From an uncultured Helicobacter sp. (GTDB lineage: Bacteria; Campylobacterota; Campylobacteria; Campylobacterales; Helicobacteraceae), in NCBI GenBank assembly GCA_947179285.1, contig CAMXAV010000005.1:1-11900 (forward strand): a stretch of DNA of 11,900 nucleotides. Reading direction: 5' to 3'. The first letter of the stretch is position 1. Each line of letters begins with the position of its first letter. The notes below the pieces were generated by a model. The model was given only the letters and a program-made list of their open reading frames with translations, was not told the DNA's origin and did no database searches. The translations under genes were made by a program, and so were the position numbers. This document shows, piece by piece, positions 1-11,900 of the stretch.

Positions 1-209
1 GGCTTGAGCAGCTCATGTGCGGGCGCGGGCATCAGATAGCCCGGCATGCTCGAATCATCGGACTCAAGCAGAATCGGGAGATTGGAACGTTTTTGTGCAC
101 TCAAGGGCAGCTTGTGCTGCATGTTTTGGCTTTCGCCCGGAATCGGGATATGCTCAACAGATTGGGCATAGACGATTGCACCCAGCAACAAAAACCAGAA
201 TCTTTTCAT
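1..209 (-). CDS. Secreted protein of unknown function (N-terminal part; runs off the window)
   Basis: The frame is open from an ATG at 207-209 to the window edge (about 69 residues seen). The start is set by a strong ribosome site, AAGGGGGGAG, a few bases upstream. The first 15 residues look like a signal peptide: basic MKR, a hydrophobic core (FWFLLLGAIVY), then a likely cut after Ala15 (VYA/QS). No lipobox cysteine is seen, so the product is probably soluble in the periplasm or exported further. The mature part visible is polar and proline-rich with no motif I recognise. It lies downstream of nadD on the same strand, with 53 bp between them that hold a possible promoter of its own. I do not assign a function, because the catalytic part, if any, is outside the window. 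Confidence 0.75.
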   Translation of the reverse strand, partial: MKRFWFLLLGAIVYAQSVEHIPIPGESQNMQHKLPLSAQKRSNLPILLESDDSSMPGYLMPAPAHELLK

Positions 210-236
210 ATTCTCCCCCCTTGCCCCGATTTTCTT

Positions 237-242
237 ATTATA
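237..242 (-). promoter_or_regulatory. -10 promoter element for the secreted-protein gene
   Basis: A TATAAT hexamer on the minus strand sits in AT-rich sequence about 28 bases before the ATG at 209, giving a leader of roughly 20 nt. No clear -35 is seen, as is usual for Campylobacterota vegetative promoters. It lies in the short gap after nadD, so the downstream gene may be expressed both by read-through and on its own. Confidence 0.5.
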
Positions 243-262
243 CATTAAAATATGTTCAGAAC

Positions 263-856
263 TTATTTTTTCAAAACCGCCTGCCAAACCTCATCGGCGA
301 TGCGCGAATCGAGCCATTGTAGAATCTCGCGATTGCCCACATGCAAGGCTTGGCGAATCTGTGTCGAGCTGCAAGGGCAGCAAAACGCGACCCAGCAAAA
401 ATCGATTGTTTGCAGAATCGCAGCATCGCTTTGGGCATTAGGGCGCGCAAAAACAACAAACACAGCCTTTTGGCGCAACGATTCAAACCCAAACCATTCA
501 TGCAAGCGCGCGAGGTGGTCGGCGCCGATGACGATTCCAATCTTTTGCGCGCTATCGATATGAAAATGCGCTTGCAGATATTCAAGCGTCTGCAAGCTCG
601 GCGTGGGCGCGCCGCGCGCTATCTCAAAGTCGCTTATGACAATTTTTGGATTGTCAAACACGATTTGCGCCCAACGCAGCCGCAGCCTTGCACAAAAGAG
701 GCTTGTTGTCTTGAATGGGCTCAAAAACGCGGGCACAACAAAGAGCCGCGCGCCAAGCGCACAAAGCCGCTCTGCTATCGCGCTATGCCCCACATGTGGC
801 GGGTCAAACGAGCCGCCGAACATCACATAATCGGGAATCGTGGCAACTTGTGGCAT
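263..856 (-). CDS. nadD: Nicotinate-nucleotide adenylyltransferase NadD
   Basis: NadD joins nicotinate mononucleotide to AMP from ATP to make deamido-NAD, a cytosolic step common to de novo and salvage NAD synthesis. The 197-residue protein has the nucleotidyltransferase signature GGSFDPPHVGH at residues 14-24, with the two histidines that bind ATP phosphates. It also has the C-terminal SSTQIR motif at 163-168, typical of NadD and related adenylyltransferases. The length is normal for the family. The frame is open further upstream to 949, but the ATG at 854-856 is chosen because AAAGGAA lies just before it and the family signature begins near residue 12. The longer reading would run through the likely promoter. 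The gene is divergent from the membrane-protein gene at 943 and is followed by a secreted-protein gene. Confidence 0.95.
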   Translation of the reverse strand: MPQVATIPDYVMFGGSFDPPHVGHSAIAERLCALGARLFVVPAFLSPFKTTSLFCARLRLRWAQIVFDNPKIVISDFEIARGAPTPSLQTLEYLQAHFHIDSAQKIGIVIGADHLARLHEWFGFESLRQKAVFVVFARPNAQSDAAILQTIDFCWVAFCCPCSSTQIRQALHVGNREILQWLDSRIADEVWQAVLKK

Positions 857-872
857 TTCTTTCCTTTGCAAC

Positions 873-878
873 ATTATA
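873..878 (-). promoter_or_regulatory. -10 element of the nadD promoter
   Basis: TATAAT on the minus strand, preceded by GTG, lies 17 bp before the nadD ATG. This places transcription start near 866 and gives a leader of only about 10 nt, which is essentially the ribosome site alone. No -35 hexamer is evident. Its expected -35 zone overlaps the -10 of the divergent promoter at 898-903. Confidence 0.5.
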
Positions 879-897
879 CACCATCGCATGCTTGTGC

Positions 898-903
898 TAT
901 AAT
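898..903 (+). promoter_or_regulatory. Extended -10 promoter for the membrane-protein gene at 943
   Basis: TATAAT preceded by TGC (895-897) forms a textbook extended -10 (TGnTATAAT). The predicted start, near 910, would give a leader of about 33 nt. The expected -35 zone (about 875-880) coincides with the -10 of the nadD promoter, so the two promoters are back to back and interlocked. Transcription from here could continue into flgM. Confidence 0.6.
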
Positions 904-942
904 GCGGAACAAAAATGGCTATATGAGAATCAAGGAAACAAC

Positions 943-1239
943 ATGGCATTTCGCAGAAAACCCAAACACAAGCCCGCCGCCGCGCCAGTAGCGGCTTCTA
1001 GCCAGCCTATGGAGGTGCGCACACACAGAGGCTTCGACCTCGCTTCGTGGATTGTCCCAACGCTTGGATTCGTTGTGTTTGCCTATACGATGATATTCGT
1101 GGCAATGTACACAATGAAAGTCGGGGGACCCAATGTGAGCCTCTATATCCCGCCCGATTCGGCGCAAGAGCGACCAAACACAAGCGTGGATAAAGTCTTG
1201 CAGGGAATCAATGACGCATTTGACCCTAACAAAAAATAA
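943..1239 (+). CDS. Small single-pass membrane protein, unknown function, upstream of flgM
   Basis: This is a 98-residue protein with ATG at 943 and AAGGA six bases before it. The N-terminus is strongly basic and rich in Ala/Pro (residues 4-18). One hydrophobic segment follows at about 35-58 (WIVPTLGFVVFAYTMIFVAMY) and then a polar tail of about 40 residues. By the positive-inside rule the N-terminus should be cytoplasmic and the tail periplasmic. I do not recognise a family. In Campylobacter jejuni the gene before flgM is flgJ, but this protein has a central membrane span and does not look like the FlgJ rod-binding domain. It ends 45 bp before flgM and may be co-transcribed with it, so a role linked to the flagellum is possible but unproven. 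Confidence 0.8.
   Translation: MAFRRKPKHKPAAAPVAASSQPMEVRTHRGFDLASWIVPTLGFVVFAYTMIFVAMYTMKVGGPNVSLYIPPDSAQERPNTSVDKVLQGINDAFDPNKK
1188..1201 (+). promoter_or_regulatory. Weak sigma-54-like site upstream of flgM
   Basis: TGG (1187-1189) and TTGC (1198-1201) give the GG-N10-GC spacing of RpoN promoters, but the CACG part of the consensus is missing. The site lies in the coding region of the membrane-protein gene, about 84 bp before the flgM ATG. A match this loose is expected about once by chance in a window of this size, so it is listed only as a candidate. Confidence 0.2.
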
Positions 1240-1253
1240 TATTGTGTCGATAT
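1227..1253 (+). promoter_or_regulatory. Possible sigma-28 (FliA) promoter of flgM
   Basis: TAAC at 1227-1230 and CGATAT at 1248-1253 are 17 bases apart. This is the spacing of the flagellar sigma-28 consensus (TAAA ... CGATAA/T). One mismatch falls in the -35 part. Predicted start is near 1260, giving a leader of about 25 nt before flgM. Control of flgM by the sigma factor that FlgM inhibits would form the usual feedback loop. An alternative vegetative -10 (TATAGT, 1251-1256) overlaps it. Confidence 0.4.
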
Positions 1254-1284
1254 AGTCTATGAATCGTTTATGAAAGGAGGCATT

Positions 1285-1506
1285 ATGATTGGCTCTATCC
1301 GACATGACAATGCGTTTTTCCAAGCCGCAAGTCAGGCTGTGAGCAACGCGCAAGGCAACGACCAAACAGCAAAACGTGCAAGCAAAGACGACAAAATCGA
1401 GACATCACGTGTTGCTGAAATCAAAGAAGCCTTGGCAAAAGGTACATATAAAATCGATATAGGAGGGAGTGCGGCAAAAATGGCACGGAATTTGCTTGGG
1501 AAGTAG
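1285..1506 (+). CDS. flgM: Anti-sigma-28 factor FlgM
   Basis: FlgM binds FliA (sigma-28) in the cytoplasm and holds back late flagellar genes until the hook is built. The protein has 73 residues, short as in other epsilon-group FlgM proteins. Its N-terminal half is polar and probably disordered. The recognisable part is the C-terminal FlgM domain from about residue 42, with RVAEIKEALAKGTYKIDI followed by KMARNLL at 65-71, the sigma-binding helices. The ATG at 1285 is chosen over the in-frame ATG at 1270 because AGGAGG sits at 1275-1280, four bases before it. flgN follows after 24 bp. The last codons (1480-1496) also spell a sigma-54 promoter. Confidence 0.93.
   Translation: MIGSIRHDNAFFQAASQAVSNAQGNDQTAKRASKDDKIETSRVAEIKEALAKGTYKIDIGGSAAKMARNLLGK
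1481..1496 (+). promoter_or_regulatory. Sigma-54 (RpoN) promoter inside the 3' end of flgM, driving flgN-flgK
   Basis: TGGCACG (1481-1487), four bases, then TTGCT (1492-1496) matches the RpoN consensus TGGCACG-N4-TTGCW at every fixed position, with GG and GC exactly 10 bases apart. Transcription should begin near 1507, directly after the flgM stop, leaving about 24 nt before flgN with its AAGGAG at 1519-1524. The element lies wholly within the codons for Met66-Leu71 of FlgM. In Helicobacter pylori flgK and the gene before it belong to the RpoN class of flagellar genes, which agrees with this placement. Confidence 0.88.
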
Positions 1507-1530
1507 TAGCTAACTTTTAAGGAGCAACAA

Positions 1531-1959
1531 ATGCTACAAACCCATATCAAAGATTCCATTGCCGATGTGCAAGCACTCATTGCCATCACCAAAGAAGATA
1601 TCGAGGACATCAAACAAGCAAAACATGAGGCAATCTTTGCGCGTATGAAGCCCAAAGAAGATTTGATTGACGCCTTTTTTCACAAAAAAGAGCTTGCCAA
1701 AGAAATCATTCAAGGGCTTGTCGAGCAGCGCCCGGGAGTTGAAGTGCGTGAACTTGTTGGTCCTGAAGCCGTTGCGTTGTTCGACACATTGAACACCCAC
1801 TTATTCGAGCTCAAAGAAGCAAATCTCCACTTCGCGCGGCTCTCTGCCGCTGTGGGTGAGTTTTATCGCTCGATGCTCGACAAGCTCATTCCGTCTGAAA
1901 GCGATTATCGCGGCAGACACATTTCTAAAGATGTCAGCTTCATCTCTGTCGATGCGTAA
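1531..1959 (+). CDS. flgN: FlgN-like flagellar export chaperone
   Basis: This 142-residue, highly charged and mostly helical protein has no membrane segment. By position and character it is the FlgN chaperone that binds the C-terminus of the junction proteins FlgK/FlgL in the cytoplasm and delivers them to the export gate. The N-terminal two thirds (residues 1-60 and 85-125) look like long amphipathic helices with Lys/Glu repeats, as in FlgN proteins. Sequence similarity alone is too weak for certainty. The assignment rests on size and on the flgM-flgN-flgK order known from Campylobacter. AAGGAG lies six bases before the ATG. Its TAA stop at 1957-1959 is part of the flgK ribosome site, which suggests coupled translation of chaperone and cargo. 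Confidence 0.82.
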   Translation: MLQTHIKDSIADVQALIAITKEDIEDIKQAKHEAIFARMKPKEDLIDAFFHKKELAKEIIQGLVEQRPGVEVRELVGPEAVALFDTLNTHLFELKEANLHFARLSAAVGEFYRSMLDKLIPSESDYRGRHISKDVSFISVDA

Positions 1960-1963
1960 GGAG
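1957..1963 (+). promoter_or_regulatory. flgK ribosome binding site overlapping the flgN stop codon
   Basis: TAAGGAG combines the flgN TAA stop with the Shine-Dalgarno site for flgK, six bases before its ATG at 1970. A ribosome finishing flgN is thus placed directly on the flgK start, which would tie junction-protein output to chaperone output. Confidence 0.7.
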
Positions 1964-1969
1964 TAGAAT

Positions 1970-3808
1970 ATGCCAAGTATTTTTACTTCTCTAAACACGG
2001 CTTATACAGGATTGATTGCCCACCAAACAATGGTCGACACGACAGGGCACAACATCGCCAACGCAAGCACAGAGCTTTATAGCCGACAAATCGTGCAAAC
2101 GAGCAACACATCGCTGAACAATATCGGCAATTTCGGCACGTATGGAATCGGCGTCAATGTCGACACAATCAAGCGCTTGCATGATGAATACATCTTTAGC
2201 CGCTATGTAACAGCAGCGGGCGAAAAAGAATATAGCCAAACCAAATACGATGTCTTGCGTGAAGTGTCAGCCTATCTTCCCGATGTCGAGAAAAAGGGCA
2301 TGTATAATGATTTGCAAGAATATTTCAATGCATGGAAGGATTTCTCGGAGAAATCGAGCGACCCTGCGCAAAGAATCGTGCTTGCCGAAAAAACCCAAAC
2401 GCTCGCCACAACGATTCGCGAAACGCGCAATCGCCTCTATCAGCTCCAGCTTGACATCAACGAAGAGGCAGCAGACATCATCAAGAAAGTCAACGATTTG
2501 GGGCAGGAGATTGCCAACATCAACAGGCAAATCACGATGTATGAGCGCGAGGACAAGCTCGCCCCAGCAAACGATTTGCGCGATGAACGCGACCGAAAGG
2601 AGCTCCAACTCTCCAAGCTCATCGGCGGGCAAGCCTTCAAAGAGGCGCTCAAAGTCGATGGCATGTTCACAGATTCTGTCGACTTCACCGAGGATTATAG
2701 CTATAAAATCGCAAATGGTTATACGCTTGTCGATGGCGTGAGCTTCCACCCGCTCGCTGTCGATAACTCGAAGAATCCCGAAGGATTCTATAACTTCCTC
2801 TACACCAAACAAGATTGGAAGCACAAAGATTTGACCTCTGATTTGCGCGAAGGCAAGCTTGGCGCGTTGCTTGCCACAGGTGTGGCTGATGTGAGCAAAA
2901 GCGCAACCGCGACACTCGGCGACATTCAGCGCTACATCAACATGCTCGATACCTTTGCCGCCACGCTCATCGAATCGACCAACAACATCTATGCCCGAAG
3001 CGCCGCGCCCAACATTCGCGGCGATTTTATGGAGAATCTCGATGCCAACGAAGCTGTCGTGAGCTCGGGCTATCATTTCCGCGAGGGTAGCTTCGATGTT
3101 GTGCTCTATAATAGCGTGGGCGATGAGATTGCGCGCAAGACGGTTACCATTGATGGCAAAACCACGATGAACGACATCTTGACGCAGCTCAACACAAACT
3201 CTGATGACAACAATGACGGCAACGCGAACAATGACTTCGATGACTATTTCGAGGCAGTGTATAACAACAAATCGCGCACATTCCAAATCAACCCCAAAGC
3301 CGCGCTGAACATCAAAGAAATCACGATTGGTATCGAAGACAAAGGCAGCAACATCGCCGGCGCGCTCGGGCTCAACCGATTCTTTGATGGGCGCGATGCA
3401 AGGGACATCAACCTTGCATTGAATTATCGCGATGACCCAACGACCATTAAGGCATATAAGGCAAATGTAACGGGTAACCATGATGTCGCAAATGCGATGA
3501 TTCAGTTGCAATACGATAACGTGATGTTCCGCGAATATGACGGCACAGACCATGCGTTCAAGCTCTTTGAGTATTATAAAAACCTCGCAGGGCAAATCGC
3601 AAACGACACAGCAGACGCGTTGGCAAACAACGAGCTTAAAGCCGCCGTGCTCGCCTCTGCCAAAGAAGAACATGATGCCATCTCGGGTGTGAGCCTCGAT
3701 GAGGAACTCACCAATTTGATTCAATTCCAAGCGGGCTATACGGCAAACGCCAAGGTAGTAAAGGCGCTCGATGAAATCATCAACACACTCTTGGGCTTGA
3801 AACAATAG
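1970..3808 (+). CDS. flgK: Flagellar hook-associated protein 1, FlgK
   Basis: FlgK is exported through the flagellar channel and forms the first junction ring between hook and filament. The 612-residue length fits the larger epsilon-group FlgK proteins. The N-terminus has the rod/hook signature with TTGHNIANAS at 24-33. The C-terminus (575-612) has the matching helix with LIQFQAGYTANAKVVKALDE and ends with the typical INTLL. Both ends should pair as the D0 coiled coil. Between them are a helical D1 region (about 130-220) and variable outer domains. An acidic Asp/Asn-rich loop at 412-425 resembles a calcium-binding loop. ATG at 1970 has a good ribosome site shared with the flgN stop. The gene is convergent with the glycosyltransferase, with 15 bp between the stops and no clear terminator hairpin. 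Confidence 0.96.
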   Translation: MPSIFTSLNTAYTGLIAHQTMVDTTGHNIANASTELYSRQIVQTSNTSLNNIGNFGTYGIGVNVDTIKRLHDEYIFSRYVTAAGEKEYSQTKYDVLREVSAYLPDVEKKGMYNDLQEYFNAWKDFSEKSSDPAQRIVLAEKTQTLATTIRETRNRLYQLQLDINEEAADIIKKVNDLGQEIANINRQITMYEREDKLAPANDLRDERDRKELQLSKLIGGQAFKEALKVDGMFTDSVDFTEDYSYKIANGYTLVDGVSFHPLAVDNSKNPEGFYNFLYTKQDWKHKDLTSDLREGKLGALLATGVADVSKSATATLGDIQRYINMLDTFAATLIESTNNIYARSAAPNIRGDFMENLDANEAVVSSGYHFREGSFDVVLYNSVGDEIARKTVTIDGKTTMNDILTQLNTNSDDNNDGNANNDFDDYFEAVYNNKSRTFQINPKAALNIKEITIGIEDKGSNIAGALGLNRFFDGRDARDINLALNYRDDPTTIKAYKANVTGNHDVANAMIQLQYDNVMFREYDGTDHAFKLFEYYKNLAGQIANDTADALANNELKAAVLASAKEEHDAISGVSLDEELTNLIQFQAGYTANAKVVKALDEIINTLLGLKQ

Positions 3809-3823
3809 TTTGATTCTTCTAAA

Positions 3824-4936
3824 TCAGCCCTCGCAAAGCTCGCGATAGAGCGCATGCCATTGTGGAATGATTTGCTCGGGCAAAAAGGCGCGGATTCTCT
3901 GTTTTGCGCCTTGTGCAAGCTTTGCATAAAGCGCCTTGTCGTCTTTGAGCGTGCGCAAGGCATTGGCGAGTGCCTGCGAATCGCACGCGGGGACGACAAG
4001 CCCGCTTTGCATATCAAGATTGACATCATGCACGCCCGAGCGTTCAATCTTTGTTGCAACAACGGGCTTGCCAAAGCCCATTGCCTCGAGCTGCACGATT
4101 CCAAACATCTCTGTGCGCTCGATTGAGGGCAGCACAAACACATCGCATTGCTCGAAATAATTGCAAATCTCTTGCGTACTCAACGCGCCCAACAAAAACA
4201 CGCGATTCTGGAGATTGTGCCGCACAATTTGTTCCGACAGATTCCGATACAGCGCGCCATCGCCCCCGATGAAAATGCGAAAACTCTCATCAAGCGCATT
4301 TGCCGCGTCTATCAAATACGCAAAGCCCTTGTAATAGACCAAGCGCCCGAGCGCGAAAACATTAAAAAAACTTTTGTCAAGTTCAATGCAATTTTCTTGT
4401 GGCATAAGGGGCGCGATAGAATAGGGAATCACCCTGCCTTTGGGCGCAAAATGCGGGGTATAGTCCGAATCTTCGATATGCGCGCGCGTTGCGCCAACGA
4501 CAACATCGGCGCGGCGAATGAGCCAACGCAAAAGCGGCGCATAGAATCGCAAGAGGCGCTTTTGGCGCACGATGTCGGCATGCCATTGCAAGACAATCTT
4601 TGCCTTTGGGCGCACCAAAAACAGCGCGAGCGCCGCCATTGGGTCTGGGTGGTGCACATGAATGATGTCATATTGCGAGCCAAGCGCACGCAAACGCGCA
4701 ATCATCATCGGCGCAATCGCCGTTCGCGCGAGCTTGCCAAAGCTTGCAGCGCGTGTAATCGTGTAGTGCGTCTCGCCGATTCTATGCGTGCTTGTTTGCG
4801 AGCGCAGTGTCTCGCTCGCACAAAGCACATCTGTTTGCAACCCCGCAGCATTGCAACCCTCGACAAGCTCGGCAATCACGCGTTCCACGCCGCCATGCGT
4901 TGGCGGATAGAATTTGCCCAAATGTAGGATTCTCAT
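3824..4936 (-). CDS. Glycosyltransferase family 4 (GT-B fold)
   Basis: This 370-residue enzyme is predicted to transfer a sugar from a nucleotide sugar, with retention, onto a growing surface glycan. The N-terminal acceptor domain begins with FYPPTHGGVERV (9-20), the glycine-rich loop typical of family 4. HVHHPDP (93-99) is also typical. The C-terminal donor domain carries GRLVYYKGF (197-205), FIGGDG (222-227) and the retaining E-x7-E motif at Glu276 and Glu284. No membrane span or signal peptide is seen, so it probably acts at the inner face of the cytoplasmic membrane. The start lies 5 bp after gmd. TAAGG, made partly from the gmd stop, is its weak ribosome site. Its neighbour suggests a GDP-linked donor such as mannose, rhamnose or fucose, but the sugar cannot be read from sequence. 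Confidence 0.92.
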   Translation of the reverse strand: MRILHLGKFYPPTHGGVERVIAELVEGCNAAGLQTDVLCASETLRSQTSTHRIGETHYTITRAASFGKLARTAIAPMMIARLRALGSQYDIIHVHHPDPMAALALFLVRPKAKIVLQWHADIVRQKRLLRFYAPLLRWLIRRADVVVGATRAHIEDSDYTPHFAPKGRVIPYSIAPLMPQENCIELDKSFFNVFALGRLVYYKGFAYLIDAANALDESFRIFIGGDGALYRNLSEQIVRHNLQNRVFLLGALSTQEICNYFEQCDVFVLPSIERTEMFGIVQLEAMGFGKPVVATKIERSGVHDVNLDMQSGLVVPACDSQALANALRTLKDDKALYAKLAQGAKQRIRAFLPEQIIPQWHALYRELCEG

Positions 4937-4941
4937 GCGCC

Positions 4942-5967
4942 TTATGAACGCAAATTGTGCTGCATGTCGGATTCGAGCATGAGCTTGCAGAGCTGCTGCA
5001 AATCGCAGCTAGGATTCCAACCAAGCAGCTTGCGGGCTTTGCTCGCATCGCCAATCAGGCAATCGACATCGCTTGGGCGGTAATATTTTGGGTTAATGCG
5101 CACGCGCACAATGCCGCGTTCGTCACGTGCAATCTCGCGAGCGCCGCTGTTTTCCCACGCAATCGGAATCTTCGCGAGCGTGAAGCAATACTCGACAAAT
5201 TCTTTAATGCTATAACTCTTGCCTGTCGCCAAGACAAAGGTTTCGGGCGTGTCGTATTGCAACATCTGCCACATACCCTCGACATATTCTTTGGCAAAGC
5301 CCCAATCGCGTTTGGCATAGAGATTGCCAAGCTCGAGGCATTCTATCTTGCCTAGCGAAATCTTGGCGACAGAATCGGTGATTTTGCGCGTTACAAACTC
5401 GATGCCCCGCAACGGGGATTCATGATTGAACAAGATTCCGCTGCAAGCAAAGAGTTGATAGCTTTGCGCGTAGTTGATTGTGAGCCAATGCGCATAGAGT
5501 TTCGAGGTTGCATAGGGGCTGCAAGGGCAAAATGGGGATTGCTCGTTTTGTGTGGGCGAGCCTGTGTTGCCAAACATCTCGGAGGTCGAGGCTTGGTAGA
5601 AGCGAATCTTGGGGTTACAGATTCGGATAGCCTCGAGCAAATGAAGCGCGCCGAGTGCGTTGGTGTGCATTGTGGCAAGTGGCTGGGTGAAAGAGCTTGG
5701 GACAAAGGATTGCGCAGCGAGGTTATAGATTTCATCGGGTTCAATGCTTTCAATCAGCGCAAAGACGGCGCTGCTATCGGTGATGTCGGTCTCAATGAGC
5801 GTCAATGCGGCATGCTCTTCGATTCCAAGCGCCCGCAAACGCCAAAAATTTGGGGTACTCACGCGCCGATAAATCCCATACACTGCATAGCCCTTTGCCA
5901 ACAACAACGCCGCAAGGTATGCACCATCTTGCCCCGTAATCCCCGTTATGATTGCCTTTTTAGACAT
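4942..5967 (-). CDS. gmd: GDP-mannose 4,6-dehydratase
   Basis: Gmd converts GDP-D-mannose to GDP-4-keto-6-deoxymannose, the branch point to GDP-fucose, GDP-rhamnose and related sugars of O-antigen or capsule. This 341-residue short-chain dehydrogenase has the nucleotide-binding loop GITGQDG (9-15), STSEMFG (127-133) with the catalytic Thr and Glu, and Y152-x3-K156. Gmd hallmarks are NHESPLRG (181-188), FVTRKIT (191-197), AKRDWGFAKEYVEGMW (218-233) and YYRPSDVD (295-302). It resembles the short Gmd type known from Pseudomonas aeruginosa more than the about 370-residue enterobacterial type. ATG at 5965-5967 has AAAGGGG about ten bases upstream. No reductase or epimerase (fcl, rmd) is adjacent, so the final sugar is open. 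A heptose substrate is a less likely alternative, since related enzymes act on GDP-manno-heptose. Confidence 0.94.
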   Translation of the reverse strand: MSKKAIITGITGQDGAYLAALLLAKGYAVYGIYRRVSTPNFWRLRALGIEEHAALTLIETDITDSSAVFALIESIEPDEIYNLAAQSFVPSSFTQPLATMHTNALGALHLLEAIRICNPKIRFYQASTSEMFGNTGSPTQNEQSPFCPCSPYATSKLYAHWLTINYAQSYQLFACSGILFNHESPLRGIEFVTRKITDSVAKISLGKIECLELGNLYAKRDWGFAKEYVEGMWQMLQYDTPETFVLATGKSYSIKEFVEYCFTLAKIPIAWENSGAREIARDERGIVRVRINPKYYRPSDVDCLIGDASKARKLLGWNPSCDLQQLCKLMLESDMQHNLRS

Positions 5968-6003
5968 CAGCGTCTCGCCCCTTTTGTCTCATTACAAGCA
6001 AAA

Positions 6004-6009
6004 ATTTTA
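6004..6009 (-). promoter_or_regulatory. Extended -10 promoter for the gmd-glycosyltransferase unit
   Basis: On the minus strand, TAAAAT is preceded by TGT (TGn motif), 36 bp upstream of the gmd ATG, predicting a leader of about 30 nt. It lies in the 122-bp AT-rich divergent gap 5968-6089, which differs clearly in composition from the flanking genes. No -35 is visible. Confidence 0.42.
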
Positions 6010-6036
6010 ACACAACTAATCTGAAAAAATATTAAG

Positions 6037-6052
6037 TATAATATGCTACAAT
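6037..6052 (+). promoter_or_regulatory. Promoter for the CNNM/CorC-type gene (two overlapping -10 candidates)
   Basis: TATAAT lies at 6037-6042. Just downstream, TACAAT at 6047-6052 is preceded by TGC (extended -10). Either would start transcription 30-40 nt before the TTG start at 6090. Both may be used. The gmd promoter reads away from the same gap. Confidence 0.5.
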
Positions 6053-6089
6053 CGTTTACATACTTTTGTTTTGTCGTTAGAGGAGTTTA

Positions 6090-7397
6090 TTGTTGGACCT
6101 GCATAGTCTCTTTATGCTATTTTTAGCCCTCCTATTGGTTGCCTTGAATGCTTTTTTCGTTCTCTCCGAATTTTCGATTGTCAAAGTGCGGCGCTCGCGG
6201 CTCGAAGAACTCGTAAAACGTGGAAACAGCACAGCGGGGCTTGCGCTCAAAATCTCCAACAATCTCGACACCTACCTTAGCGCCAATCAGCTCGGAATCA
6301 CGCTCGCCTCGCTTGCGCTTGGGTGGATTGCCGAGCCCGCTGTGGAGCGCTTGTTGGTTGCGCCCATCACCTTTCTTGCGGGCAACAACGCTGTTTTGGG
6401 CAAGACCATTAGCGTTGTCGTTACATTCACGATTATCACCTTTTTGCATGTCGTGCTTGGCGAGCTCGTGCCCAAATCGCTCGCGATTGCCAAAACCGAA
6501 CGCGTTGTGCTGCTCATCGCCCGCCCGCTGCATCTCTTTTGGATTCTCTTCTATCCGCTCATTCGCCTTTTCGACCTCACGGCGCTTTTCTTCTTGCGCT
6601 GCTTTCGAATCGAGCCTGCCAAAGAAAGCGAGCTCGCACATAGCGAAGAGGAGCTCAAAATCATCGTTGGCGAATCCCTGAAGGGCGGGCATATCGACAT
6701 GCTCGAGGGCGAGATTATGAAAAACGCCGTTGAGTTTTCCGACACTGTGGCAAAAGAAATCATGACGCCGCGCAACGATATGATTTGCCTCAATGCCCAA
6801 GCCTCGCTCGAACAAAACATGGACATCGTCATGCAATCGGGATTTACACGTTTCCCGTATTATACGGACAGCAAAGACAACATCAAGGGCATCATTCATA
6901 TCCGCGATTTGCTCAAGCTCGCCTGCAAAGACGAGCCCATCGATTTTGAAAAAATCATTCGCCCTGTGATTATCGTCCCCGAGAGCGCGCCGATTGCGAA
7001 GATTCTAACCACGATGAACAAAGACAGAATCCACACCGCACTCGTGATTGACGAGTATGGCGGGACATCGGGAATGATAACAATGGAAGACATTGTCGAG
7101 GAAATCATTGGCGATATTCATGACGAACACGACACGCGCGTGCATGACGCATTTCAAGAAATCGAGCCCAATTGCTACGAAGTCGATGGCAAGCATGAAA
7201 TCTTTGCGCTCGAGGAAAAAATCGGCTTTGAATTTGACGCGCGCCGCGATGAGGTCAGTATTGGCGGCTATGTCTTTAGCCTGATTGGCACAGTGCCCAA
7301 TGTCGGAGACACCGTGAGCGATTTGAACGCCGATTTCGAGGTGCTCGAAATGGACGGAAACCGCATTAAGCGCATCAAAATTAGGCGCAAAACCTAG
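6090..7397 (+). CDS. DUF21-CBS-CorC domain membrane protein (CNNM/HlyC-CorC family, probable magnesium transporter)
   Basis: Proteins of this family, often labelled haemolysins, are inner-membrane transporters linked to magnesium or cobalt export. The 435-residue protein has three parts. The first is an N-terminal DUF21 domain with membrane spans at about 6-30, 65-82, 88-130 and 140-170 and the motifs NAFFVLSEF (20-28), SANQLGITLASLALGW (64-79) and HVVLGELVPKS (120-130). The second is a CBS pair at about 220-345, with MTPRND (225-230) and DEYGGTSGMIT (321-331). The third is a C-terminal CorC/HlyC domain (about 355-433). The gene starts with TTG: there are two in a row, at 6090 and 6093, after AGAGGAG (6079-6085). 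Spacing favours 6093, and the first in-frame ATG (6114) would cut into the first membrane span. glyS follows 21 bp later. The haemolysin name is historical and not supported by the sequence. Confidence 0.92.
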   Translation: MLDLHSLFMLFLALLLVALNAFFVLSEFSIVKVRRSRLEELVKRGNSTAGLALKISNNLDTYLSANQLGITLASLALGWIAEPAVERLLVAPITFLAGNNAVLGKTISVVVTFTIITFLHVVLGELVPKSLAIAKTERVVLLIARPLHLFWILFYPLIRLFDLTALFFLRCFRIEPAKESELAHSEEELKIIVGESLKGGHIDMLEGEIMKNAVEFSDTVAKEIMTPRNDMICLNAQASLEQNMDIVMQSGFTRFPYYTDSKDNIKGIIHIRDLLKLACKDEPIDFEKIIRPVIIVPESAPIAKILTTMNKDRIHTALVIDEYGGTSGMITMEDIVEEIIGDIHDEHDTRVHDAFQEIEPNCYEVDGKHEIFALEEKIGFEFDARRDEVSIGGYVFSLIGTVPNVGDTVSDLNADFEVLEMDGNRIKRIKIRRKT

Positions 7398-7418
7398 CAA
7401 AATCTTTTGGAGTAGATT

Positions 7419-9464
7419 GTGAGTGTTGCATTATTCATCGAGATTGGCACAGAGGAATTGCCCGCGATTCCGTTTTTGAAAGAATTGCCAAATATCCTAG
7501 ATAAATTTTATGCCGCATTGGGCGCACAGCAAATCGGTGGGCAATGCCGTTTCGACTACACGCCGCGGCGGCTCGTTGTGCGCGGGCAGATAGACGCGCG
7601 GCAGAAGGACGGAATCGAGGAATTTTTTGGTCCCCCCGTGAGTGTCGCCTACCAAAACGGCGCGCCAAGCAAGGCATTTGATGGATTCCTCAAGCGCACG
7701 GGCGCGGGCAAAGAAGAGGTTCGCACGGCGCACAAAGACGGCAAAGAGGTATTGTATTATCAAAAGCACACCAAGGGGCAAGAGACGCGCGCCATCATCG
7801 CCGACATCGTGCGCGACTTTGTGCAACGGCTGCATTTTGGCAAGACAATGCGTTGGGGCAGCCTCTCTGAAAGCTTCATTCGCCCCGTGCGCACGCTTTG
7901 CGTGATGCTCGATGATACGCTCGTTGATATGGAACTCTTCGGAATCAAAAGCGCAAAGCAAACCTTTGTACATCGCGCGCTTGGCTTTGATGCGCGCGGG
8001 TTTGAGACGCAGGCTGCATACGAGAATCTGCTCGAACAAAACGGCGTGATTCTGGATTCAGAGGCGCGCAAACAGAGAATCTTGCAACAAATCAAGGCGA
8101 TTGAGGCGAGAGAAAATATTCGCGTGGGGCTCGATTCCGAGCTGCTTAGCGAGATTGTCGCGATTACCGAGTATCCAACGGCGCTGCTTGGGCATTTCGA
8201 TGCGCATTTCTTGACGATTCCACAAGAGATGATTATCACCTCGATGAAGGAGAATCAACGTTATTTTCCGCTTTTCAAAGGCGAGAATCTCTACAATGGT
8301 TTTATTGTCGTGAGCAATGCCTTCAAGGGCGATGATTCGCTGATTGTCAAGGGCAACGAACGCGTGCTACGTGCGCGGCTTTCGGACGCATTGTTTTTCT
8401 ATCAAAACGATTTGCGCAATGGGTTTATGCCCCAAGCCCTCGAGAATGTGCGCTTTGTCGAGGGGCTTGGCAGCATGGCAGACAAAGCACGGCGCGAGGG
8501 CGCAATCGCGCTGTCGCTTGGCACGCTCTATATGCCAAAGCTCCAAGAGCTCACGGGCAAAGACGCAAGCACGATTGAAAGGCTTTTGCAGCAGGCGGCG
8601 CAACTCACAAAGGCAGACCTCGTGAGCGAGAGTGTGTTTGAATTTACCGAGCTGCAAGGAATCATTGGCGGCTCGATGGCGGCGCATGCGGGGCATGACG
8701 CGCTTGTCGTGGGCGCGATTGCCGACCAATATCTGCCCAAAAGCCAAGATGACGCGCTGCCGCGCAACCTGTTTGCCGCAATCTTTGCGCTCGCCTATCG
8801 GCTCGATAATCTCCTCGCGCTCTTTAGCATTGGCAAGATTCCAAGCGGCTCGAAAGACCCATTCTCGCTACGCCGCGCTGCAAACGGAATCATACGCATT
8901 GTGCTTGCGTTTGGGCTTGAATTTGATGTGCAGAAGCAATTGCAGCAATTCGCGCCGCATTATGCAGCCTTTGACACCGCCAAGCTCACGCAATTTGTCT
9001 TGGAACGTTTGGGGGCGTTTTATGATGTGAATGCCTCGCTCATCGCGGCTGTGCTTGCGAGCGGCGAGCGGGATTTGTGCGCGATTGATAGGCGGCTCGT
9101 GGCGCTTGGCGAGGCGAAGCAAGACGAACTTAATGCGCTTGGCGCTATCTTTAAGCGCGTGGCAAACATCACGCAGGGGCTTAACCTCGACAATCTCCCC
9201 GAGATTCAAACAGAGATTCTAAACGCAAGCGAGGAGCTCGAGCTTTACCACGCCTTCGAGGCGCTCAAGGCGCGCAAATACGCGAGCCTGACAGAGGAAT
9301 TGCATGCACTCTTGGCGCTTCGCGAGATTCTCGACCGCTATTTCGACAAAGTGCTTGTGAACGCGCCCGATATGGCATTGCGCGACAACCGCAAGGCGCT
9401 ACTCGCAAGAATCTATAAAGAGTTCCTAAAAATTGCGGATTTCAAAGAGATTAGCATTGGCTAA
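7419..9464 (+). CDS. glyS: Glycyl-tRNA synthetase beta subunit
   Basis: GlyS is the larger subunit of the bacterial heterotetrameric glycyl-tRNA synthetase; it recognises tRNA-Gly, while the alpha subunit GlyQ carries most of the amino-acid activation site. The 681-residue length is normal. The N-terminus has the family signature EIGTEELPA (8-16). FDYTPRRLVVRG and a run near 280 with ITSMKENQRYFPL are further hallmarks. The conserved KIPSGSKDPFSLRRAANGI block follows at about 474-492, and the C-terminal part fits the DALR-type anticodon-binding domain. Translation starts at GTG 7419, with GGAG six bases upstream. glyQ is not in this window, as in other Helicobacter genomes where the two genes are apart. 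The TAA stop at 9462-9464 overlaps the stop of the convergent gene at 9461. Confidence 0.96.
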   Translation: MSVALFIEIGTEELPAIPFLKELPNILDKFYAALGAQQIGGQCRFDYTPRRLVVRGQIDARQKDGIEEFFGPPVSVAYQNGAPSKAFDGFLKRTGAGKEEVRTAHKDGKEVLYYQKHTKGQETRAIIADIVRDFVQRLHFGKTMRWGSLSESFIRPVRTLCVMLDDTLVDMELFGIKSAKQTFVHRALGFDARGFETQAAYENLLEQNGVILDSEARKQRILQQIKAIEARENIRVGLDSELLSEIVAITEYPTALLGHFDAHFLTIPQEMIITSMKENQRYFPLFKGENLYNGFIVVSNAFKGDDSLIVKGNERVLRARLSDALFFYQNDLRNGFMPQALENVRFVEGLGSMADKARREGAIALSLGTLYMPKLQELTGKDASTIERLLQQAAQLTKADLVSESVFEFTELQGIIGGSMAAHAGHDALVVGAIADQYLPKSQDDALPRNLFAAIFALAYRLDNLLALFSIGKIPSGSKDPFSLRRAANGIIRIVLAFGLEFDVQKQLQQFAPHYAAFDTAKLTQFVLERLGAFYDVNASLIAAVLASGERDLCAIDRRLVALGEAKQDELNALGAIFKRVANITQGLNLDNLPEIQTEILNASEELELYHAFEALKARKYASLTEELHALLALREILDRYFDKVLVNAPDMALRDNRKALLARIYKEFLKIADFKEISIG

Positions 9465-9751
9465 GTTTTTGCGCCTCGCAAGGCGCTAAAACGTTGCACA
9501 AGCTCGTTGCGCAGCTGTTCTGACGGCGCGTTGTGCAGAATCTCGCGAAATTGCGCCCGCGAGCATTCGATGGTTTGAATGATAGACGCGATTCCATTGC
9601 CGACTTGTTCGCTAGAATCTTTAGGGAAAAGCCGCAACAAGATGTTCGCCTCATCGGCAGAGAGAGGGTGATGCGTGTTGAAGAGAATATCGAGCAGCTG
9701 CCGATAGCTCTCAATGTCGAAACTCTTTTGGTCTTGGGGTTGCGTGCTCAT
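9461..9751 (-). CDS. Small helical protein of unknown function, coupled to the pseudo-receiver gene
   Basis: This 96-residue protein is polar, without signal peptide or membrane span, and is probably all helical and cytoplasmic. I recognise no family. Its middle (about 25-65) contains LSADEANILLRLFPKDSSEQ, like a short helix-turn-helix or adaptor fold, but this is only an impression. Its ATG overlaps the stop of the receiver gene as ATGA (9748-9751), so translation is very likely coupled, and AAGGGCAAG just upstream can serve as ribosome site. The coupling suggests the two products work together, for example as partner or output of the receiver-like protein. Its 3' end overlaps the glyS stop by 4 bp tail to tail. 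Confidence 0.78.
   Translation of the reverse strand: MSTQPQDQKSFDIESYRQLLDILFNTHHPLSADEANILLRLFPKDSSEQVGNGIASIIQTIECSRAQFREILHNAPSEQLRNELVQRFSALRGAKT
9471..9486. repeat. Perfect inverted repeat (hairpin) just after glyS
   Basis: GCGCCT, a four-base loop CGCA, then AGGCGC form a perfect 6-bp GC-rich stem starting 7 nt after the glyS stop. Flanking T5 and (T)A4 could extend it with one bulged base. The T run is on the 5' side, so it lacks the layout of an ordinary intrinsic terminator in either direction. It also encodes Arg/Ala/Leu near the end of the 9461-9751 protein. It may protect the glyS mRNA end or mark a weak transcription stop. Confidence 0.4.
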
Positions 9752-10332
9752 TCTTGCCCTTGTTTGACAATCCGTTCAAGGCGCACAATGCGCAAAAAGG
9801 CATCGAGAGGGATTTTCAGCACCCTATCGGCGCTCTTGGTTAGAATCAGATTCTGCTGCTCAACCACCTGAAACTTCGCGCCCTTTTGGAGAATCTCGAG
9901 AATCTCATCTTTATATTCATTTTCGTAAATCCCGCGATGATGCTGTGGGTCCATGAGCGTGCGAATGATGGGCGTGATAATCGATTCGAGCTTGATGGCG
10001 TTGAAGGGCTTTGTGATGAAATGCTTCACGCCATCGTTTTGCAATAGGCGATATTGAGCGTCATTGAGCTGGCTAGAAACAAGAAAAATGGTGATTTTGT
10101 CCGTAACGCCGCGCCCCTTCATCTTCGTAATGAGCGTATGATAATCCATTCCCGCAACATTTGAGTTCAAGAACAGAACATTGAAATCCATATTTTCATC
10201 GAGATATTCGAGCACAGTATCACCATCTGGACACTCGAGAATGCGTGGAACACTCAATTTTTTAAGCGCCCCCAAAATCAATTTTTTCGTAATCGGGCTA
10301 CTATCCGCGACAAGAACGCTGATTTGTGGCAT
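9748..10332 (-). CDS. CheY-like protein with degenerate receiver domain (phospho-acceptor Asp replaced by Asn) and unknown C-terminal region
   Basis: Residues 1-125 of this 194-residue protein form a receiver domain: the start VLVADSSPITKKLI matches the acidic-pocket strand of CheY, DG lies at 36-37, and FITKPF at 105-110 carries the conserved Lys108. At the place of the phosphorylated Asp57 of CheY the sequence FLNSNVAGMDY has Asn56. The first acidic-pocket residue is Ala9 and only Asp10 is kept. The conserved Thr is Ser86. It is therefore a pseudo-receiver unlikely to be switched by ordinary phosphorylation. Residues 130-194 are a short charged region with no DNA-binding, GGDEF or CheW-like motif that I recognise. 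ATG at 10332 has AAGGA five bases before it and its own promoter. The 96-residue gene overlaps its stop. Confidence 0.88.
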   Translation of the reverse strand: MPQISVLVADSSPITKKLILGALKKLSVPRILECPDGDTVLEYLDENMDFNVLFLNSNVAGMDYHTLITKMKGRGVTDKITIFLVSSQLNDAQYRLLQNDGVKHFITKPFNAIKLESIITPIIRTLMDPQHHRGIYENEYKDEILEILQKGAKFQVVEQQNLILTKSADRVLKIPLDAFLRIVRLERIVKQGQE

Positions 10333-10355
10333 TGTTTTCCTTGAGGTTTTTCCTT

Positions 10356-10361
10356 ATTATA
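10356..10361 (-). promoter_or_regulatory. -10 promoter element for the pseudo-receiver unit
   Basis: TATAAT on the minus strand lies 24 bp before the ATG at 10332, predicting start near 10349 and a 17-nt leader that contains AAGGA. The whole gap to the upstream gene is only 37 bp. The unit can thus be expressed apart from bcp and the SLT-like gene, though read-through is possible because no terminator is seen. Confidence 0.55.
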
Positions 10362-10369
10362 GCGCATTT

Positions 10370-11050
10370 TTAATAATCAGGCATGAGTTGGAACGATGTA
10401 TTGCTGCCATGCGGTGTCATGAGGCTTTTGGAATCGACAAAGCCATCGTTGAAACTCCGCATTGCTGCGCTTTTTGGCGTGGCGCTCTGCTGCTTTTGTT
10501 GCTGCTGCGCGGCTCTTTTTGGTCGTACCGAATGCAATTGTTGTTTGAGCTGCTTGTAACGTATCGTTACATCGCGCAAATAGGCATTGGCGAGTCTTTC
10601 TTTTTCTTTATCTTTTTGCCAGCTAAAGCCCTTGTTGTAAGACTTGATAATCTTCTCCCAATCGCCATTATGCACCTTGCGCCAATACAATAGCTGCTCA
10701 ATCGCCTCTTTTGCGGCAAACTCATCATCGCGCACGAGCCGTTCGCCAATGCGATTCTGTGTGAATCCGTCATTGCCAAGATGTGGATACCTCTTGAGCA
10801 CGGTCGGGATATGCGCGTGGAAAATCCCCGCGCTTGGGTCTTGGAAATTCATGCGGTATTCGCCCGCGCATGATTCCTTCCACGCAATCGCTGCGAGCGT
10901 GTAGCCCAAATCGAGCTTCTCACCATATTTATAGACTTTGCGCAAGAGCTTGATTTGCTGCGCCGAAAGGTCTTCGATGTTTTGCACACACCGATTCTCA
11001 AGCCCAATGCCAAACGCAACCGAAAAGAGTAACAAGACAATCCATCTCAT
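10370..11050 (-). CDS. Secreted lysozyme-fold protein, SLT-like putative lytic transglycosylase
   Basis: The 226-residue protein begins with a signal peptide (MRWIVLLLFSVAFG, cut near residue 14-16), so it acts in the periplasm. Residues 46-145 resemble a transglycosylase SLT domain: LAAIAWKES (52-60) provides the likely catalytic Glu59 after the first helix, DPSAGIFH (71-78) stands where SLT enzymes have S-x-x-G-L-M-Q, and KSYNKG (136-141) matches the Y-N-x-G motif. The G-L-M-Q element is altered (GIFH), so activity or substrate may differ. A tail from about 165 is basic and Gln-rich (QQQQKQQ at 182-188) and probably disordered. The start at 11050 is chosen over an upstream in-frame start (11074) because AGGAGG lies at 11055-11060 and the signal peptide starts here. 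It follows bcp after 32 bp. Confidence 0.82.
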   Translation of the reverse strand: MRWIVLLLFSVAFGIGLENRCVQNIEDLSAQQIKLLRKVYKYGEKLDLGYTLAAIAWKESCAGEYRMNFQDPSAGIFHAHIPTVLKRYPHLGNDGFTQNRIGERLVRDDEFAAKEAIEQLLYWRKVHNGDWEKIIKSYNKGFSWQKDKEKERLANAYLRDVTIRYKQLKQQLHSVRPKRAAQQQQKQQSATPKSAAMRSFNDGFVDSKSLMTPHGSNTSFQLMPDY

Positions 11051-11082
11051 ACAGCCTCCTATTTCTCTATGCAAAGCAAGTT

Positions 11083-11559
11083 TTATGCCACATTGCCCCG
11101 AATCTCAATCAGCTTCTCGAGCACGGCTTTGGCATGGTCTTTGACCTTGACTTTGTGCCACACAAACGCGATTCTGCCCTCTTTGTCAATCAAAAATGTA
11201 CTCCGCAAAATGCCTTCATAGGTCTTGCCATACGACTTTTTCTCGCCCCACGCGCCGTATTGCAGCGCCACAGAATGGTTGTTGTCGCTCAATAACGCGA
11301 TTGTGAGCGCATGTTTGTTGATAAATTTTTGATGAGATTGCATCGAATCGGGGCTAATGCCCAACACGCAAGCGCCGTTTGCGACAAAGCTTGCGAGGCT
11401 CGCGCTAAAATCGCATGCCTCCGTTGTGCAGCCCGGCGTGGAATCTTTGGGGTAAAAATAAACAACCACGAAAGAACCGCGCAAATTTTGCAAGCAGAGT
11501 TCTGTGCCATCAGAGCTAGGCAGGCAAAAAAGCGGCGCAACATCGCCTATTGTTAGCAT
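11083..11559 (-). CDS. bcp: Thiol peroxidase Bcp (peroxiredoxin Q)
   Basis: Bcp reduces hydrogen peroxide and organic or lipid hydroperoxides in the cytosol, using thioredoxin as electron donor. The 158-residue length is typical. Motif PGCTTEAC at 42-49 contains the peroxidatic Cys44 and the resolving Cys49 five residues later, the arrangement of the atypical two-cysteine Bcp class. YFYPKDSTPG precedes it, and FLIDKEGRIAFVWHKVKVKDHA near the C-terminus is also characteristic. ATG at 11557-11559 is preceded by TAAAGGAA, whose TAA is the stop of the upstream membrane-protein gene, so translation may be coupled. The SLT-like secreted protein follows in the same direction. Confidence 0.96.
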   Translation of the reverse strand: MLTIGDVAPLFCLPSSDGTELCLQNLRGSFVVVYFYPKDSTPGCTTEACDFSASLASFVANGACVLGISPDSMQSHQKFINKHALTIALLSDNNHSVALQYGAWGEKKSYGKTYEGILRSTFLIDKEGRIAFVWHKVKVKDHAKAVLEKLIEIRGNVA

Positions 11560-11569
11560 TGTGATTCCT

Positions 11570-11900
11570 TTAAAAATAAAAAGTCAGCAATACTAGCACA
11601 AGCAACAACGCGATGTCAAGGGCATATTTCTTTTTCGCCCACGCGATGAACGCGCTTTGTTCGGGAATCTCATAGCTCGCAATCACGCGCTGACGCTTGT
11701 AGCGCCGAATCTCATTACACGCTATCACAGCGCCAACGATGCTCATCATCATCGCGTTCAGGCTATAATTTTGCTGCATAAACGCGAGAATGATGCCCGT
11801 AAAGACAGCAGAGGCGAGCAAGAAATTATACGCGGGGGTGAGCAGACGAATGCGCCGCACAAGATGCGGGAACGAACGCATTTGGAACAAAAACAAAAGC
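11570..11900 (-). CDS. Small multi-span membrane protein of unknown function (5' end at or beyond the window edge)
   Basis: The frame is open from the window edge to a TAA at 11570-11572. A candidate ATG lies at 11881 (103 residues) and a TTG at 11896, but neither has a clear ribosome site, so the true start may be outside the window. Three hydrophobic segments are seen from the ATG: about 19-35 (FLLASAVFTGIILAFM), 41-56 (LNAMMMSIVGAVIACN) and 86-103 (ALDIALLLVLVLLTFYF, at the very end). A basic stretch (RRYKRQR) sits between the second and third and is probably cytoplasmic. I recognise no family. Its stop is part of the bcp ribosome site, which points to one operon with bcp. Confidence 0.72.
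   Translation of the reverse strand, partial: LLFLFQMRSFPHLVRRIRLLTPAYNFLLASAVFTGIILAFMQQNYSLNAMMMSIVGAVIACNEIRRYKRQRVIASYEIPEQSAFIAWAKKKYALDIALLLVLVLLTFYF

Follow-up and report, generated by a model that had tools for sequence, protein, structure and literature searches.

A putative sigma-54 promoter embedded in the last codons of the anti-sigma-28 gene flgM in Helicobacteraceae

Introduction

Intragenic promoters of both the sigma-28 and the sigma-54 (RpoN) type are already known (PMC4183435, PMC4591121). In Escherichia coli, a promoter for the flagellar sigma factor FliA lies within flhC and serves motAB-cheAW, an arrangement put down to the limited room in a small genome (PMC4183435). Here we describe a comparable case in an 11,900-nucleotide (nt) stretch from an uncultured Helicobacter sp. 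(GCA_947179285.1, contig CAMXAV010000005.1, positions 1 to 11,900; hereafter the window), where a candidate sigma-54 promoter, TGGCACGGAATTTGCTT, lies in the 3' end of flgM, the gene for the anti-sigma-28 factor, ahead of an flgN-like gene and flgK. As in flhC, a flagellar sigma-factor promoter in an upstream regulatory gene would drive the next operon, but both the sigma factor and the gene are different. E. coli also has sigma-54 promoters inside neighbouring coding sequences, in nagB for nagE and in yqeC for yqeB, with leaders of 360–760 nt on the resulting messenger RNAs (mRNAs) (PMC4591121). The flgM site differs in lying in the last codons, in an expected leader of 24 nt in this genus, and in key bases that are kept family-wide.

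The closest described locus is that of H. pylori, in which the order is flgM (HP1122), a cytosine methyltransferase gene (HP1121), HP1120 and flgK (HP1119) (PMC2864241, PMC9010608), and in which HP1120 and flgK appear among the class II (RpoN) genes (PMC2864241). The same genes and the same motif are found there, but the promoter is intergenic, behind the methyltransferase gene, and the embedded form is lacking. In Campylobacter jejuni, flgM shares a transcript with the RpoN-dependent flgI and flgJ and has a FliA promoter of its own, and both sigma factors thus control it (PMC11187230); none of the Campylobacteraceae loci in this analysis has the full motif in flgM. An embedded flgM promoter was not mentioned in the titles and abstract openings of the literature searched, in which subscription journals were mostly outside coverage. 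What appears to be new is the placement in the anti-sigma-28 gene, its persistence over 13 genera, the unusual constraint on the codons, and the exception made by an H. pylori-like clade.

Results and Discussion

Conservation of the element in flgM

The codons under TGGCACGGAATTTGCTT are ATG GCA CGG AAT TTG CTT (MARNLL), with the T of TGGCACG at 1481; these six codons end two codons before the flgM stop (TAG, 1504–1506). The element lies entirely within same-strand coding sequence, at flgM codons 66–71, a numbering that depends on a start at ATG 1285, the most likely one because AAAGGAGG is present at 1273–1280. With this start the earlier note, a reading of the window's letters that first proposed a promoter here, was right about sequence, frame and encoded peptide. 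The GG-N10-GC spacing is present, and TGGCAC and TTGC agree with the sigma-54 consensus. The helix carrying MARNLL is the part of FlgM that binds sigma-28.

By itself the single site is suggestive only. The peptide favours such a match, because Met-Ala forces TGGC and Leu codons often yield TTG and CT: with codon frequencies taken from ten window genes, the probability of TGGCACN5TTGC given MARNLL is 0.019, and that of the bare GG-N10-GC core is 0.26. The earlier note, which had left the peptide out of account, thus overstated its case in calling a chance match very unlikely. TGGCACN5TTGC also occurs at four further places in the window genome (an assembly 58.7% complete, 1.07 Mb in 222 contigs), with one match in the reversed control. 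It is the conservation among relatives that serves as evidence.

A profile search with PF04316 found flgM in 119 of 121 Helicobacteraceae genomes, representing 13 of 13 genera, and the 3' end could be read in all 119; G001 was missed by the profile and G008 gave no flgM match. Exactly one TGG[CT]A[CT]N5TTGCT is held in the last 60 nt of flgM at 101 of the 119 loci, with all 13 genera represented and in the codon register NTG GYN ... TTG CTT. Over these 101 loci the T, G, G and A of the first half and the T, T, G, C, T and T of the second are invariant; C occupies the fourth position in 100 loci and the sixth in 85, the other 16 having T there, and the spacer is variable, as are most of the codons just downstream. 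The G that the earlier note had counted into a full TGGCACG consensus varies freely (A 55, T 24, C 15, G 7), while TGGCAC, the spacing and TTGC stand. By the same note's own criterion, a promoter would be refuted if close relatives varied freely at synonymous sites under the GG and the GC, and the result went the opposite way. In every one of the 101 loci the motif is in sense orientation and the next open reading frame (ORF) is of flgN size, with flgK behind it in 97. The motif is also present in G001 and in the named species H. didelphidarum and H. saguini (L003, L004), as well as in G121, which is labelled as another family (f2) and groups with Helicobacteraceae on the FlgK tree. The closest loci to the window that were found belong to Helicobacter assemblies (L001, L002).

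For comparison, an outgroup of 88 loci from other Campylobacterales was assembled from 66 loci of the order and 30 of Campylobacteraceae, less seven shared genomes and G121. TGGCAYN5TTGCT was found in the flgM end of none of the 88, and the bare GG-N10-GC core in 11.

Synonymous changes in the motif codons

The match might be a mere by-product of a conserved FlgM peptide and codon bias, with no promoter behind it, and the probabilities given above, together with the 11 bare cores in the outgroup, are what speaks for this. Codon changes were counted by parsimony on a 97-tip flgK tree, which covers those of the 101 motif loci with enough flgK, at columns in which at least 95% of genomes share one amino acid. 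No synonymous change was counted at the GCA (96 genomes with Ala), TTG or CTT codon of the motif. The other two such columns in flgM changed 17 times (Tyr) and nine times (Lys). In flgK there are 53 conserved columns with a median of 26 changes, and none of the 26 columns with 4- or 6-fold residues changed fewer than 24 times (Leu 28–42, Ala 28–37). Directly behind the motif, 11 changes were counted at Asn codons and eight at Gly codons. An internal control is provided by 39 genomes with a Leu two codons past the motif: this Leu uses five codons, with 10 changes, and the two motif Leu codons are TTG in 39 of 39 and CTT in 39 of 39. These codons are thus under a constraint at the DNA level beyond that of the peptide. 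As sole cause, a by-product of peptide and codon bias is already refuted by the absence of synonymous changes at three 4- to 6-fold codons and by the variable Leu two codons further on; drift, moreover, is seen only where flgM and flgN have parted, as described next, and we consider this explanation scarcely credible.

The H. pylori-like clade

All 18 family loci in which flgM is devoid of the motif belong to one genus (g2) and form a single clade (17 of them with FlgK on the tree). In 17 of the 18, flgM is followed by an ORF of 312–319 amino acids, with a second ORF behind it in two (G009, G028); the one insert examined out of these 17 is a C5 cytosine methylase (PF00145). The eighteenth, G010, has a gap of 268 nt after flgM. 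The gene order of the clade agrees with HP1122–HP1119 of H. pylori. The FlgM Leu pair is encoded here by TTA TTG, TTG TTG, TTA TTA or TTG TTA, and TGGCATAG(T/A)ATTTGCT precedes flgN at 17 of 17 loci with a readable flgN start (CGG in G033; G010 is included, and G022 is left out since its locus ends before flgN). The distance from the -12 C to the flgN ATG is 36–39 bases in these 17 loci and 35 in the window. This amounts to a natural experiment: where flgM and flgN were parted, the flgM codons have lost the motif and the motif is found before flgN. Since flgM is no longer close to flgN, its codons would be free, and the motif sits next to flgN instead. The clade also suggests why the model species H. 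pylori would not have revealed an embedded promoter.

The intergenic promoter of this clade, AAAATGGCATAGTATTTGCTTG, resembles a flgM end with a stop codon inside. We rejected the idea that it is a flgM tail duplicated by the insertion, as local alignment, which beat the best of 100 shuffles in only two of ten genomes, gave no clear likeness beyond the motif; such a tail as the source of AAAATGGCATAGTATTTGCTTG is possible.

Nature of the constraint

A constraint at the nucleotide level could also come from an RNA element at the end of the flgM mRNA, or from a sigma-54 site that binds polymerase and starts no transcription. Of 135 E. coli sigma-54 sites mapped by binding, most are intragenic, and three intragenic ones were shown to be promoters (PMC4591121), so that intragenic binding is common there and proven promoters are few. 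Against both versions, the bases that never vary match the sigma-54 consensus and the spacer between them does vary, the same motif stands 36–39 bases before flgN where flgM is further off, and the orientation and downstream genes of the 101 loci are those expected of a promoter. We therefore regard a constraint of this other kind as quite improbable.

In toto, the family-wide comparison gives strong evidence of a DNA-level function within a conserved peptide motif, and we think it very probable that the flgM tail holds a dual-coded sigma-54 promoter for flgN-flgK, which would have arisen where flgM parted from flgI-flgJ. The earlier note's proposal that this DNA is read twice, as peptide and as RpoN switch, gains support from the invariant motif bases and from the motif before flgN in the H. 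pylori-like clade. Several points weigh against the embedded promoter. Some 2- or 3-fold flgK columns also hardly change (the lowest 1, 6 and 7 times), and the Arg directly after the motif is AGA in 13 of the 13 genomes that have Arg there. The support of the motif-less clade is low (0.43), and the expected leaders in genus g3 are long (below). Finally, eight of the 88 outgroup loci (six of g23, one of f10, one of g94) have a TGGC...TTGCT-like match in flgM despite an upstream flgJ, which indicates that the peptide can yield the core with no need of a promoter.

Organisation of the window locus

The features of the locus are collected in Table 1.

Table 1. Features at and around the putative promoter in the window.
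Feature	Position	Strand	Remarks
Putative sigma-54 (RpoN) promoter element TGGCACGGAATTTGCTT	1481–1497	+	in-frame in flgM; -24 GG 1482–1483, -12 GC 1494–1495
flgM, anti-sigma-28 factor, host frame of the promoter	1285–1506	+	PF04316, 34 bits, above cut-off
Expected transcription start (about 1507) and 24-nt leader	1507–1530	+	predicted from the distance to the -12 element
flgN-like gene (HP1120-type), which would head the RpoN transcript	1531–1959	+	142 amino acids; between flgM and flgK
flgK, hook-associated protein 1	1970–3808	+	TIGR02492, 318 bits
Sigma-28-type -10 element GTCGATA upstream of flgM	1246–1252	+	pattern [GTA][CT]CGAT[AT]
Small membrane-protein-like ORF upstream of flgM	943–1239	+	from ORF and neighbours; flgJ position in other Campylobacterales

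The predicted start would lie about 12 nt past the GC, giving the short leader of Table 1, with a Shine-Dalgarno-like TAAGGAG at 1518–1524 ahead of the flgN ATG. The 24-nt leader of the earlier note fits the spacing in this genus and does not extend to the family, as the next ORF begins 8–275 nt past the flgM stop across the 101 loci. All 14 genus g3 genomes (e.g. L004, L076) retain the motif in flgM and have an unusually long stretch, 114–275 nt, from the flgM stop to the next ORF; in L004, scanning this stretch for terminators returned nothing on the sense strand.

The FlgM protein scores 33.2 bits against TIGR03824, which is below the cut-off, and a structure comparison gave one weak match in the PDB (9wsf, E value 0.008) that stops short of the Leu-Leu end. 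The flgN-like protein has no match in Pfam or NCBIfam and is named by position. No Pfam family matched the small ORF at 943–1239; a pattern for it was matched upstream of flgM in 89 of the 119 family loci and unmatched in 30. Its identification as FlgV was rejected, given that flgV belongs to a flhF-flhG-flgV-fliA cluster (PMC10655999). A phage comparison gave no match.

Absence of the flgJ link and a proposed history

A flgJ gene upstream of flgM was found in none of the 119 family loci, in 64 of the 66 order loci and in 30 of the 30 Campylobacteraceae loci (seven genomes are in both latter sets), using tblastn with four queries matching PF10135, three at or above the cut-off and one below. 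The two order loci without it, G121 and G141, each had short upstream sequence in this test; a longer G121 stretch contained no convincing flgJ and, in its place, a small ORF resembling the Helicobacteraceae one. Presence of the embedded promoter and lack of an upstream flgJ thus go together.

We infer the following order of events. The older arrangement would have been flgI-flgJ-flgM-flgN-flgK under an upstream RpoN promoter. In the lineage of Helicobacteraceae and G121, flgM may then have become separated from flgJ, and an RpoN promoter for flgNK would have been re-made in the flgM tail, where the peptide was already near the consensus. Later, in the H. pylori-like clade, inserted DNA (a methyltransferase gene in the one case examined) would have parted flgM from flgN, after which the flgM codons drifted. 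Such a history would explain how flgNK stayed RpoN-class where flgM has no link to flgIJ.

In six Campylobacteraceae loci of g23 and in L206, TGGCTGATGC(G/T)TTGCT is present in flgM though flgJ is upstream.

RpoN machinery and the proposed mechanism

The gene rpoN (PF04552) is present in five of five genomes of the genus. The window genome also encodes an FlgR-type protein (PF00158) of 380 amino acids with Response_reg, Sigma54_activat and AAA lid domains, in which Pfam identified no DNA-binding domain. FlgR of H. pylori works without binding DNA (PMC3930126), and an enhancer would thus be dispensable for an embedded promoter. In the window genome the pattern TGGNAYN5TTGCTT was counted 16 times, with none in the reversed control; in four other genomes of the genus the counts are 29, 17, 18 and 25, with 1, 3, 0 and 4 in the respective controls. 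Context was read for the 16 sites of the window genome (G000) and for the site in G001. Sites among the 16 precede flagellar genes that belong to the RpoN class in other organisms, namely flaB and flgH (family matches above cut-off) and flgL and a flagellin paralogue (below cut-off, part sequences). Among the 15 other than the flgM site, five overlap the last codons or stop of the preceding mechanically called ORF, and several are inside longer ORFs or have no clear target. Promoters set into the ends of upstream genes thus seem not to be rare here.

In the mechanism that we propose, RpoN polymerase would bind TGG-Y-A-Y-N5-TTGCTT in DNA that encodes [Met/Leu/Val]-[Ala]-x-x-Leu-Leu, and the FlgR ATPase would open it from solution, with no enhancer site. 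Transcription of flgN-flgK would begin near the flgM stop, in the middle phase, while flgM itself would be transcribed from a sigma-28 (FliA) promoter. As no terminator-like site was found between flgM and flgN in the window, read-through from flgM could supply late-phase flgN-flgK mRNA. If this is correct, a C-terminal tag on FlgM, or recoding of that end of the gene, could in other Helicobacter species disturb flgN-flgK as well.

The sigma-28 side

The pattern [GTA][CT]CGAT[AT], whose wider form was chosen after viewing seven loci and is therefore fitted to the data, occurs upstream of flgM in 100 of the 119 family loci and in six of 119 control stretches; in the outgroup rows it was found in 73 of 95 (control 7). 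The narrower CGATA[TA] is present in 41 of the 119 family loci (control 11). In H. pylori, flgM has been called FliA-dependent (PMC3930126). The CGAT element fits a placement of flgM on the sigma-28 side and of flgN-flgK on the sigma-54 side. The earlier note saw in the double reading of the flgM tail a physical link between the two branches, which holds for the DNA; a link in mechanism would be of the following kind.

Besides starting flgNK, the site might couple the branches in cis, with sigma-28 polymerase clearing or occluding the promoter or a sigma-54 closed complex acting as a roadblock to read-through. The promoter does lie under the flgM transcript, with the sigma-28-type element and the terminator-free junction described above. 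The H. pylori-like clade manages without the overlap, and we judge such coupling unlikely. Also doubtful, to about the same degree, is a timing role in cis, whereby, after the release of sigma-28, flgM transcription would run through and shut the flgNK promoter and so end the period of middle-gene expression, with the promoter also dictating FlgM residues. The constraint does reach the protein: all 101 motif loci use NTG for the residue before Ala (81 ATG, 16 TTG, 3 GTG, 1 CTG), which is Ile in 35 of the 88 outgroup proteins (Met 27, Val 18, Leu 7, Ala 1). NTG also precedes Ala in 17 of the 18 motif-less family loci.

Other sites of similar kind

In Campylobacteraceae g36, the 3' end of flgN contains TGGAACRAATMATGCTT, 59–61 nt before flgK, in seven of seven genomes read (L272, L276, L279, L282, L287, L267 and L269); it is possibly a parallel embedded site of sigma-54-like sequence. 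The window itself contains a second sigma-54-type site, TGGCATAAAACTTGCTT (11074–11090, minus strand), which extends over the final codons and the stop of a gene for an AhpC/TSA peroxiredoxin (11083–11559, minus strand). It precedes an ORF of 226 amino acids (10370–11050, minus strand) that has no Pfam match and is transglycosylase-like by appearance.
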